Source of the DNA: Methanofollis aquaemaris
GTDB lineage: Archaea; Halobacteriota; Methanomicrobia; Methanomicrobiales; Methanofollaceae
Assembly (NCBI RefSeq): GCF_017357525.1
Contig: NZ_CP036172.1
Coordinates: forward strand, 434,001-498,000
Length of the DNA stretch: 64,000 bases
Reading direction: 5' to 3'
This document shows, piece by piece, positions 49,587-53,301 of this stretch. The notes under the pieces were generated by a model, which worked only from the letters and a program-made list of their open reading frames with translations, was not told where the DNA came from and made no database searches. A program made the position numbers and the translations under genes. The stretch's first letter is position 1; every line of letters begins with the position of its first letter.

Positions 49587-49925
49587 TCAGAGCAGTTTCG
49601 TCCCTTCAGTCGGGCGCGGCACCTTGACCACCAGCACCCTGAAGTCCCGGTCAGAGTCGTTGGACCACCGGTGCGGAACTCCGGCCGGACTCTCGACGAG
49701 ATGGTCTCTCTCCACGCGCGCTCCTTCGTCGCCGATCTCGACGACGCCGGTCCCCTCAAGGACGTAGAAGAAGACGTCCACCGGGGTGACGTGCCGTTTC
49801 AGGGCCTCTCCCGGTTTGAGGGCGATGACGACGGCGACGGCGTCTTTTGAGTCATAAACTTTCCTGGCGTCTACTCCATGGGGGTTGGGGTGGACCGGCA
49901 CCTCTGCGAGATTGACAATTTTCAT
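49587..49925 (-). CDS. Single-domain cupin protein
   Basis: 112 residues. The cupin barrel is defined by LKPGEALKRHVTPVDVFFYVLEGTGVVEIGDE and DHLVESPAGVPHRWSNDSD, with His48, Glu57 region and His83 as likely metal ligands. Small cupins act as sensors, isomerases or dioxygenases. It follows the CooS-like gene by 16 bases and is the last gene of that strand block, so it may be co-expressed with it. Confidence 0.9.
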   Translation of the reverse strand: MKIVNLAEVPVHPNPHGVDARKVYDSKDAVAVVIALKPGEALKRHVTPVDVFFYVLEGTGVVEIGDEGARVERDHLVESPAGVPHRWSNDSDRDFRVLVVKVPRPTEGTKLL

Positions 49926-49941
49926 CTCATTTCACCTCCTC

Positions 49942-51846
49942 TCATATGCCAAGTCCCTCTCTCTTCTTCTTGATGTGACCGGCGATCCCCTCGGCCGCCG
50001 CCCCGGCGTCCGTCTCAAGGGCAAGCACGCCGCCGGTGAGTCCCTGGATCTCGTCGGTGAGCAGGGCCACCAGGTTCGGCGCCCCGGTCACGGTCGGGAC
50101 CGGGTTGACATAGGTGTACAGCCCGAAGGCAAGGGCGAAGATGGCGTCGACCGTCGCCTTCTGCTCCATGTACTCGGGCGCCGCCACCGCCACCGGGAGG
50201 GCGGTCACCGGCACTCCGCCGAGGGCGGCGGCGATCGTCGCGACGAGGTCGGCGCACCGCCCGGTGTCGGTGCAGGTCCCAAAGGAGAGGACCGGCGGGA
50301 TGCCGAGCGCCGTGCAGATCTTTTTCAGCCCCGGCCCGGCATCCGCGGCGGCCTCAGGAGAGCAGAGGCCCGCGACCTGCATCGCCGCGTTCCCGCACCC
50401 CATCGAGAGGACGAGGATGTCGCGTGCGATCAGTTCCCTGGCCACCGCGACCGAGTGGACGTCCTGCCCGCTGTCCCGCAGGGTGGTGCAGGAGACGAGG
50501 GCGGTGACCCCCTGGATGCTCCCTCCCTTGATGGCGTCGAGGAGGGGAGTGAGACTCCCGCCGAGGGCGGCGACGATGCTCTCGGGCGAGAACCCCGCGA
50601 CCGCCTCGCCCATCGGAAGGCCGGCGAGCGGTTCGACGGTGCCGTGTCGCTCTTTGAAATTCTCGATCCCCATCCGGAGCAACCCGGCCGCCTGCGCATC
50701 GGCCTGCACCGGGTCATAGTCCACCCGTTCCTCGACCCCCTCGAAGGCGACGAGTTCTGAGACCGGGACCAATTTGAAATGATACTTCTCCGCATACGCG
50801 GGGTCGAGCGGGAGCGAGCAGTTCATGTCGGCCACAAAGACGTCGACCGCCCCGGTGGCGAGCACCGCCTCCTGCATGATCCAGTTGCCGGTATACCCCC
50901 AGAAGACCTCGTCCATCCGGAGACGCTGGACCATCTCCTGCCCGGTCTCGATGTTGGCGATGACCCTCAATCCCTTCGCCCCTGCCTCCTCTGCCGCCGC
51001 CTGCCAGGCCGGATCCCTCGCACGATCCACCAGCGCGAAACCGAGGAAGGGTTCGTGGCCGTTGGGGAGGATGTTCACATAGTCGGGGTCCAGGACGCCG
51101 AGGTCGACCCGGATCGGGTGGGGTGACGGCGTCCCGAAGAGGCAGTCCTGCAGGGTTTCGAGAACGACCTGGCTCTGGTAGGCCATCGCCACCCCGAGGC
51201 GCAGCGCCTTTTTTGCGAGGGAGAGATAGGAACCGTCCACGTTCGTGAGGCACGAACTGGTGGTGCGCATCATCTCCCCATAGATTCCGCCGGGAAAGAT
51301 CCCGAGGTCGCGCCAGACTTTCTTCCGTTCGGCCGGTGCAAGCCGCGTCACGATCACGCTCTCCTCCTCGGAGTGCCGGTGGAAATCTTTCTCCAGGATA
51401 TCGCAGAGGCGCAGCGCCACCTCCGCATCCTCGCCGCCGGTCAGGACACCGAGTCGTCTGGCGAAAGTTACGAGTTTTTCAGGCTCCCGGATCCGGTACG
51501 GCGTCCTGCCGCGGGCCGTCTCCCGCAGGGTCCGCACCGTCTGTTCGCAGTGGTAGTGGTAGGTCGAGGCGCCCATCACGTTGCGCAGGAGCATCATCCG
51601 CATCGCCATGCCGTCGGCCGAGATCCCGCAGACCCCGCGTTTGTCCTTTGCCGCGTCGGCCCGGCATGGCCCGTTGGAGCAGAAGTCGCAGCGGACGCCG
51701 CCGGTACAGAAGGCACAGCGTTGGTCGGGGTCGCCGCCCAGTCCCTGGGCCTCGTACCGGTCCCAGACATTCGAGATGCCGTCTTTTTTCAGGCGTTCAT
51801 ACGCCGTCTTCACCGACGCATGATATGAGATCCGTTCAGGTTCCAT
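49942..51846 (-). CDS. CooS-like Ni/Fe-S enzyme with hybrid-cluster-type ligand set
   Basis: 634 residues with the size and N-terminal cluster region of the CO dehydrogenase catalytic subunit. Cys44 and Cys47 form a C-x2-C D-cluster pair; Cys53, Cys56, Cys61 and Cys73 match the B-cluster. In the active site His264 (NGHEP), Cys343 (DMNCSLP), Cys453 (VSCTT), Cys484 (MGCGN) and Cys525 (FGTCTD) line up with CODH ligands, but the Cys of the C-T-G-N-E motif is replaced by Glu300 (IETGQE), and the C-terminal motif reads E561-Q-K563. A Glu at that place and an E-x-K pair are features of hybrid-cluster protein. So CO oxidation is doubtful; a hydroxylamine- or NO-reductase-like role is possible. No CooC or CooF gene is near. 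Confidence 0.85.
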   Translation of the reverse strand: MEPERISYHASVKTAYERLKKDGISNVWDRYEAQGLGGDPDQRCAFCTGGVRCDFCSNGPCRADAAKDKRGVCGISADGMAMRMMLLRNVMGASTYHYHCEQTVRTLRETARGRTPYRIREPEKLVTFARRLGVLTGGEDAEVALRLCDILEKDFHRHSEEESVIVTRLAPAERKKVWRDLGIFPGGIYGEMMRTTSSCLTNVDGSYLSLAKKALRLGVAMAYQSQVVLETLQDCLFGTPSPHPIRVDLGVLDPDYVNILPNGHEPFLGFALVDRARDPAWQAAAEEAGAKGLRVIANIETGQEMVQRLRMDEVFWGYTGNWIMQEAVLATGAVDVFVADMNCSLPLDPAYAEKYHFKLVPVSELVAFEGVEERVDYDPVQADAQAAGLLRMGIENFKERHGTVEPLAGLPMGEAVAGFSPESIVAALGGSLTPLLDAIKGGSIQGVTALVSCTTLRDSGQDVHSVAVARELIARDILVLSMGCGNAAMQVAGLCSPEAAADAGPGLKKICTALGIPPVLSFGTCTDTGRCADLVATIAAALGGVPVTALPVAVAAPEYMEQKATVDAIFALAFGLYTYVNPVPTVTGAPNLVALLTDEIQGLTGGVLALETDAGAAAEGIAGHIKKKREGLGI

Positions 51847-51927: not shown

Positions 51928-53301
51928 TCACCCGACCCGGCGGATCGGTGGGAGGAGGTACGACCCGTCCAGCACCGCCCGGTCAGGCTGGTACATCCGC
52001 ATGATCGGCCGAAACTCTCCTTCAGGCGCCGGCAGCCAGTTCGATTCCTTCTCCGGGCCCGGCGAGTCGTGCTGGATATGGATGTCGAGCGAACCGTCGT
52101 CATGATACTGCACTCCGGGCGTCCGGTCGCCGATGGAGTAACGGCCGATGGGATTTTCGACCAGCATATAGTCGGGCGAGGAGTACATCGTCACCGACCA
52201 GAAGGCGCCGACCGGGGGGAGGCGGTCGAAGTGGAGGAGGTAACGGCGCTTGCCGGTGAGGAGTTCACCGGCGACGTCCTCGTAGGTCCAGGGATACGCC
52301 GCCTCGTAACCGTGGTTGCCGAAGAGCCCGGCCCGTGCCGCCGCCGCACGGCGCATGAAGTCCTCGGCCATCCAGGACTTCTCCTGCACTGTCCCGACCT
52401 CGAAGAAGCGGGTGTTGTAGTCCCAGAGGTGCGTGGTGTACAGCCATCCGTTCATCTTCTTGAGGGAGGTCCGGATATACGCCCTGATCGCCTTCTCGGC
52501 CGCCATCCGTCCCATGGTCAACGCCGCGGCGATCTCGGGTTCGGGGTCGAGGTACGGGCTCTCGGGATCGGTGAGCCCCAGCGGGGCGAAGCGATCGAGG
52601 TACTCGCGCTCCGCGGCAGGGGGCGGGCAGGCCTGCATCCAGACCCGCATCTCCTCCCATACCAGGAGGTCGGCCCTGACGCCCGGACGGGGTGCGGGCA
52701 GCGGCCAGTCTCCAGGGCGCCGCTCACCGGCGTCGGGGGCGGGGCCGGGCCAGGCGCGGAGCGGGGTGAGGGTATACTGCTGCTGGAGGGCACGGACCGC
52801 GGGGACGTCTTCAGCCCCGCTCACCGCCGTCCGACCGATGATGGCCAGCAGATCGGTCGGCGCCCTGACCATGGCCACGCCCTCAGGGAGACTTCCTTCC
52901 CAGTCGGGGCCGACAAAAGCATAGACCCCCTCCTCCGTCCCGGTCCCCCGCCGGCCGACATAGGCGAAGTTGTTTGTCCAGGCGTCCACGCACTGCATGA
53001 CATAGTAGCGCCCATGGGTGTCGGGGACATGGAGGACCATCGGTTCGGGCCCGAGGTCGACGACGGCGGTCGAGTACAGGGTGTCGTTGTTGGGCGAGAC
53101 CACCTGCCTGAACGCAGGACCGAGCAGTTGGTCGGCATGCCAGAAGGTGTTCACCGGGGCGCCCATCGCCCCCTCGGCCCCGCGGGTCATCTTCGCCAGC
53201 GTGCGGACACACTCGGTCAGCGGGTAGCCGTACAGGTAGGCCTCCCCCGCCAGGTCTACAAATTCCTCATATCTCCTCTCTTCTGCCAGTACAACTCTCA
53301 C
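51928..53301 (-). CDS. DUF1254/DUF1214-family protein
   Basis: 457 residues. DUF1254 blocks: AYLYGYPLTECVRTL, PNNDTLYSTAVVDLGPEPMVLHVPD, RYYVMQCVDAWTNNFAYVGRR and TDLLAIIGRT. The DUF1214 part at the end includes FWSVTMYSSPDYMLVENPIGRYSIGDR and HIQHDSPGPEKESNWLPAP, the most conserved signature. No enzyme activity is firmly assigned to the family. No signal peptide is seen, unlike many bacterial members. It lies 81 bases upstream of the CooS-like gene on the same strand. Confidence 0.92.
   Translation of the reverse strand: MRVVLAEERRYEEFVDLAGEAYLYGYPLTECVRTLAKMTRGAEGAMGAPVNTFWHADQLLGPAFRQVVSPNNDTLYSTAVVDLGPEPMVLHVPDTHGRYYVMQCVDAWTNNFAYVGRRGTGTEEGVYAFVGPDWEGSLPEGVAMVRAPTDLLAIIGRTAVSGAEDVPAVRALQQQYTLTPLRAWPGPAPDAGERRPGDWPLPAPRPGVRADLLVWEEMRVWMQACPPPAAEREYLDRFAPLGLTDPESPYLDPEPEIAAALTMGRMAAEKAIRAYIRTSLKKMNGWLYTTHLWDYNTRFFEVGTVQEKSWMAEDFMRRAAAARAGLFGNHGYEAAYPWTYEDVAGELLTGKRRYLLHFDRLPPVGAFWSVTMYSSPDYMLVENPIGRYSIGDRTPGVQYHDDGSLDIHIQHDSPGPEKESNWLPAPEGEFRPIMRMYQPDRAVLDGSYLLPPIRRVG

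Follow-up and report, generated by a model that had tools for sequence, protein, structure and literature searches.

The 634-amino-acid protein encoded on the minus strand of the window (the whole 64,000-nucleotide stretch of Methanofollis DNA that was analyzed) is very probably an archaeal Fe/S/O protein of the CooS-V, or CODH-V, type (structural group D-1). We base this identification on its best match in the PDB, on the fold comparison made with an AF2 model, on its position in a tree of related sequences, and on its invariant metal ligands. The high confidence applies to identity as a CooS-V-type Fe/S/O protein, and the physiological substrate lies outside it.

Proteins of this kind have been described before. 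Structural group D-1 was defined by Inoue 2019 through a Cys-to-Glu exchange at the C-cluster, a type III D-cluster, and a Tyr in place of the acid-base His, and its active-site residues, including a Glu two positions before a Lys, were noted to match those of hybrid-cluster protein (HCP) (PMC6344411). Crystal structures of CooS-V (Jeoung 2022, PMC9311411) revealed a CO dehydrogenase (CODH) scaffold that carries a bridging [2Fe-2S] cluster, a [4Fe-4S] cluster, and a nickel-free, morphing [4Fe-3S-nO] hybrid cluster that rearranges with the redox state. The same study found neither CO oxidation nor CO2 reduction, slow reduction of NH2OH (kcat of 0.13 per s), NO reductase activity not above background, and midpoint potentials approximately 300 mV lower than in E. 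coli HCP. CooS-V-type sequences are left out of the CODH counts of a later survey (PMC13240472). The first-pass annotation of this gene had proposed a protein of unknown chemistry, a description superseded by the CooS-V structures and assays and by the account of group D-1, so the chemistry of such proteins is answered in outline. Most of the novelty is thus gone, and what is added here is the genome context, a cupin neighbor, and the order in which residues changed within clade D.

Family assignment and metal-site residues

The protein scores 715 bits against TIGR01702 (the NCBIfam model for the anaerobic CO dehydrogenase catalytic subunit), for which the cut-off is 478, and Pfam places it in Prismane/CODH. 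Membership in the HCP family was rejected because the protein reaches only 23.4 bits with the HCP model TIGR01703, far under the cut-off of 360.8. Its top PDB match is Carboxydothermus hydrogenoformans CooS-V (7b7q; E value of 2.7e-199, 667 bits, full length, approximately 50% identity), and the next PDB protein, a Thermococcus CODH, follows at 372 bits. An AF2 model (pTM of 0.88, pLDDT of 83.5, weak around residues 46–50 and 584–588) superimposes on the CooS-V chains with Z scores of 48.8 and 49.0 (rmsd of 1.9, 622 residues, 49% identity); the corresponding Z scores are 42–47 for canonical CODHs, 27 for class III HCP, and 21.6 for class I HCP.

Table 1. Positions in the window of the putative CooS-V-type gene, its metal-site codons, and its neighbors
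Feature	Coordinates	Strand	Remarks
Putative CooS-V-type (structural group D-1) CODH-fold protein gene	49942..51846	minus	634 aa
Glu300 codon	50947..50949	minus	replaces ChCODH-II Cys295; equals CooS-V Glu295; counted from ORF start 51846
Glu561-Gln562-Lys563 codons	50158..50166	minus	Glu561 equals CooS-V Glu556 and D. vulgaris HCP Glu494; counted from ORF start
D-/B-cluster cysteines C44, C47, C53, C56, C61, C73	51628..51717	minus	type III D-cluster C-X2-C-X5-C
Small cupin gene (Cupin_2, 57.5 bits)	49587..49925	minus	112 aa; 16 bp downstream of the CooS-V-type gene; RBS GGAGGTGA
DUF1254/DUF1214 protein gene	51928..53301	minus	81 bp upstream of the CooS-V-type gene

The site residues named in the first-pass annotation are all present, namely His264, Glu300 (within N-I-E-T-G-Q-E, aligned with SIESGQE of 7b7q), Cys343 (preceded by Asn342), Cys453, Cys484, Cys525, and Glu561-Gln-Lys563. 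They pair with CooS-V residues (numbered as in PMC9311411) as H264/H259, E300/E295, N342-C343/N337-C338, C453/C449, C484/C480, C525/C521, and E561/E556, and the D- and B-cluster cysteines are common to both proteins. Likeness to CooS-V (7b7q, 7b7t, 7b95, 7b97, 7b9a; PMC9311411) therefore covers full-length homology, the seven cluster ligands, and the fold, and it extends to the Asn before Cys, the type III D-cluster with a Cys at the Gly41-to-Cys position (C44-X2-C47-X5-C53), the Tyr (Tyr96) at the acid-base His position, which is Tyr in all Glu-type sequences, and the (M)EQK motif. Because the D-cluster is of type III, a bridging [2Fe-2S] cluster is predicted, as in CooS-V. Every trait that defines structural group D-1 (PMC6344411) is found in the protein, and nothing excludes it from the group.

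Conservation was assessed in 81 sequences, consisting of relatives from 80 loci recovered by database scan (68–92% identity) and the copy in the window's own genome. The source records of the relatives include Methanofollis, Methanoculleus, Methanosarcina, Lokiarchaeota, Chloroflexi, Actinomycetota, Deltaproteobacteria, and WOR-3. All ligand positions, Asn342, and the cysteines at 44, 47, 53, 56, 61, and 73 are invariant (81/81), and chance or a sequencing error at Glu300 was rejected because Glu occupies this position in the entire set. The ligand set is kept in the 92% identical orthologue L001 and likewise in L125 and L126 (93–94% identical). One Glu-type homologue, L176 (G1340:C155), has its first cluster region out of frame (PGQEVPVLHGG), which looks like a draft-genome frameshift.

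A Cys elsewhere in the protein might have filled the C-cluster site, a case that the first-pass annotation had raised against its own reading. Among 38 Glu-type sequences (a set that partly overlaps the 81), the four C-terminal site cysteines are present throughout and Cys511 is the sole further fully conserved Cys. Since Cys511 also occurs in 50 of 54 canonical CODHs, it is no stand-in for a Cys at position 300. A substitute was rejected because no Cys is conserved specifically in the Glu-type sequences, and this pattern recurs in the crystal structure of CooS-V. Thus, the full C-cluster ligand set of Ni,Fe-CODH (one His and five Cys) is missing.

Compared with canonical Ni,Fe-CODHs of clades E and F (ChCODH-II and D. 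vulgaris CODH), the protein shares the scaffold, the B- and D-clusters, and five of the six C-cluster ligands, whereas those enzymes have Cys295, the acid-base His, a Gln preceding the next Cys, and in most cases Ser/Thr-x-Lys where the protein has Glu-Gln-Lys, at 30–37% identity. With HCPs of classes I–III (D. vulgaris 1e2u and 1w9m; M. marburgensis 7e0l) it shares the His, four Cys, E-Q-K, and Asn-Cys, and the same cluster type is expected, but the HCP fold is farther away (Z of 21–27) and has no bridging D-cluster. The E-x-K pair was correctly assigned to HCP at the outset, with EQK in every HCP and clade-D row aligned and S/T/D/H-x-K in every CODH row. The further statement that the equivalent HCP ligand is Glu stands in function and space, as it does for Fujishiro 2023 (PMC10502027), but not as an aligned residue; in the sequence alignment, the counterpart of the HCP cluster Glu (T-H-G-E) is the invariant Glu304 and not Glu300. 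All HCP ligand residue types (His, Glu, four Cys, and Glu) are nevertheless present. The CooS-V match and the modeled fold uphold the view of an HCP-like ligand set on a CODH fold, in which a Ni,Fe C-cluster is very unlikely.

Genome content and gene neighborhood

The genome is a single contig of 2.75 Mb (99.8% complete) in which the CooS-V-type gene encodes the sole PF03063 protein. Family searches of the whole genome, on which all of the gene absences rest, gave no match for CdhC, none above the cut-off for CdhA, and no HCP or other prismane-family protein. In contrast, C. hydrogenoformans CooS-V shares its genome with four CODHs and an HCP. Two further 99%-complete genomes from the order (G034 and G049) each hold only a Glu-type protein, at 74% identity to the 634-amino-acid protein, and in each of the eleven other searched genomes of the genus, between two and four prismane-family matches were obtained. 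According to Jeoung 2022, a CooS-V-type gene is never found without other CODH genes beside it (PMC9311411); this generalization does not hold for the Methanofollis genome or for G034 and G049.

The searches also revealed a locus in a Thermoplasmata MAG (L101:2-3790, minus strand; G134, the genome of L057) with an open frame of at least 1263 amino acids. It encodes a CODH-ACS fusion that joins a CooS-type CODH to the acetyl-CoA synthase domains CODH_A_N, CdhC, and ACS_CODH_B_C.

The small cupin gene immediately downstream (Table 1) is a probable operon partner of the CooS-V-type gene. A same-strand adjoining cupin from one of two families is found in 18 of the 81 loci, a count inflated by kinship among the loci, and seven further loci, mostly from Methanoculleus, have a cupin 1.7–3.5 kb downstream. 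Given that the whole Methanofollis genome has six Cupin_2 stretches above the cut-off, we roughly estimate the probability of chance adjacency at 1% or less per locus. The cupin gene lies upstream in some loci and downstream in others, which argues for several independent arrangements. Cupins of the two families (the window gene; L016, L029, L037, and L064) carry the motifs KkHiTPVDVFFYVLEG and FDedeGLSEHtAPyDA. No link between cupins and CooS-V-type genes was found in two context surveys or in the main text of openly accessible papers, and the Inoue 2019 account of group D-1 makes no mention of one (PMC6344411).

Other neighbors recur elsewhere. A ferredoxin-like 4Fe-4S protein of approximately 280 amino acids adjoins the gene in 14 of the 81 loci, an Rrf2-type regulator (IscR/NsrR family) is present in nine, and an FMN reductase in some, with neither an Rrf2 nor a Fer4 neighbor at the window locus. 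No CooF or Cdh gene adjoins the CooS-V-type gene, as had been remarked from the start, and Pfam analysis of the adjacent genes gave no CooC. The upstream DUF1254/DUF1214 gene was rejected as a functional partner because its adjacency is not kept in other loci, and it is probably unrelated or lineage-specific. The 81-bp gap that separates it from the CooS-V-type gene has no obvious AT-rich promoter. PADLOC gave no match indicative of a defense function.

Proposed mechanism and role

The protein is predicted to be a homodimer whose subunits are bridged by a [2Fe-2S] D-cluster and also carry a [4Fe-4S] B-cluster and a hybrid cluster of the Fe/S/O type; the cluster type, the lack of CO activity, the electron path, and the channel gating proposed here are transferred from the CooS-V crystal structures. 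His264, Glu300, Cys343, Cys453, Cys484, Cys525, and Glu561 would hold the nickel-free hybrid cluster. Electrons from a low-potential ferredoxin-type donor would enter at the subunit-bridging D-cluster (C44, C47) and pass through the B-cluster (C53, C56, C61, C73) to the hybrid cluster. On reduction this cluster would rearrange, with the persulfide sulfur on Cys525 moving into it, and the rearrangement would open a channel that lets a small oxidized substrate bind and be reduced. CO would not be oxidized. For the physiological reaction, we infer reduction of such a substrate, and the adjacent cupin may act in the same process.

The most likely role, which we put forward tentatively, is to reduce a small N-oxide or oxidant, for instance an NH2OH-like compound, in nitrosative or oxidative stress or in redox poising. 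Against this role, CooS-V itself turns over NH2OH very slowly and its NO reductase activity is at background (PMC9311411). The transfer from CooS-V as a whole bridges an identity of only approximately 50% and different branches of the Glu clade. A broader reading is possible but doubtful, namely that a widespread archaeal and bacterial sub-branch of CooS-V, with a dedicated cupin (elsewhere a 4Fe-4S protein and Rrf2), constitutes a stand-alone low-potential hybrid-cluster reductase that operates also in cells lacking CODH and HCP and whose reaction is undescribed.

The same Fe/S/O cluster could instead serve a low-potential redox sensor or regulator that works with the cupin (elsewhere with Rrf2), and only the role would differ. 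Bohm and Land 2026 proposed, without proof, that clade D proteins sense redox state or act in regulation (PMC13056359), and the slow turnover of CooS-V (PMC9311411) and the Rrf2 and cupin neighbors would suit this role. However, the redox-gated substrate channel of CooS-V suggests a reductase (PMC9311411), and the 634-amino-acid protein has no DNA-binding or signaling domain and no known partner interaction. We regard a sensor as rather unlikely.

Origin of the Glu ligand

The main tree comprised 76 sequences from which the ligand columns had been removed, with HCP as outgroup and no claim made for the root. CdhA was left out because in a quick tree that included it, its branch, 5.9 long, met HCP and was unreliable for rooting. 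The main tree unites the 634-amino-acid protein and CooS-V, in different sub-branches, within one Glu clade (29 rows, 100/100). This clade is nested within clade D (99/95 and 96/96), in which the deeper branches have Cys or Asp. L168 and L171, with Cys at position 300, are deepest (99/93 as a pair); L127 also has Cys, and L167 and L129 have Asp, the placement of L129 being weak (82/27). All five of these sequences have Asn342, Glu561-Gln-Lys563, and Gly47 (a type II D-cluster). With HCP as outgroup, the occurrence of Asn342 and Glu561-Gln-Lys563 in the Cys and Asp relatives indicates that the HCP-like residues predate both exchanges, Cys-to-Glu and Gly47-to-Cys. The latter two fall on one branch, and the Glu switch looks derived rather than an ancestral HCP-to-CODH state, a reading that depends on the HCP rooting with its long root branch and on only five non-Glu clade-D sequences. 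It agrees with the derived-trait view of Jeoung 2022 (PMC9311411).

This order of changes conflicts with the Fujishiro 2023 model of CODH-V as an ancestral stage between class III HCP and CODH (PMC10502027), under which Glu300 would be ancestral. The first-pass annotation had likewise suggested an intermediate between the two families. In favor of an intermediate, Asn342 and Glu561-Gln-Lys563 are common to HCP and all clade-D proteins, and a structure-based tree places CODH-V nearest class III HCP (PMC10502027). However, the HCP Glu and Glu300 occupy different alignment columns, and in the HCP-rooted tree, whose root is long and unsure, the Glu clade sits inside clade D, where the deeper branches have Cys (L168, L171) or Cys/Asp (L127, L167, L129). 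An intermediate with an ancestral Glu is therefore improbable, and we favor a Glu derived within clade D.

The Asp of L167 (G1290:C14:15290-17134) and L129 (G765:C3:80912-82774) is a natural Asp at the Cys295 position (MDTGQE), accompanied by Asn342 and EQK; a structure of the engineered C295D variant of CODH-II exists (7zx3). In the clade-D proteins L127, L128, L168, and L171, the Cys ligand is kept and the checked positions already show HCP-like residues, with Asn ahead of the next Cys and with Glu-Gln-Lys. L168 and L171 have Asn (Asn96) where the acid-base His or Tyr stands.

That the protein is a true Ni,Fe-CODH, with Glu300 replacing Cys while Ni is still bound and CO oxidized, is highly improbable: the TIGR01702 score, the CODH fold of the model, and a possible involvement of the M. 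acetivorans D-1 protein in CO oxidation (Rother 2007, as cited by Inoue 2019, PMC6344411) favor it, but CooS-V with the same ligands has neither Ni nor CO activity, the C295E or C295A exchange leaves CODH-II Ni-deficient and inactive (PMC9311411), and Tyr96 and the genome content argue against residual CODH function. With no Cdh or ACS genes found, the genome offers no CO or ACS pathway for the CooS-V-type protein to serve.

Annotation of such genes as CO dehydrogenases would wrongly credit this Methanofollis methanogen with CO metabolism. Because no other prismane-family gene is present in the genome, deleting this one in such a strain would expose the function of CooS-V free of interference from CODH or HCP. 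The Cys, Asp, and Glu versions within clade D represent natural steps from a cysteine-ligated to a carboxylate-ligated site.
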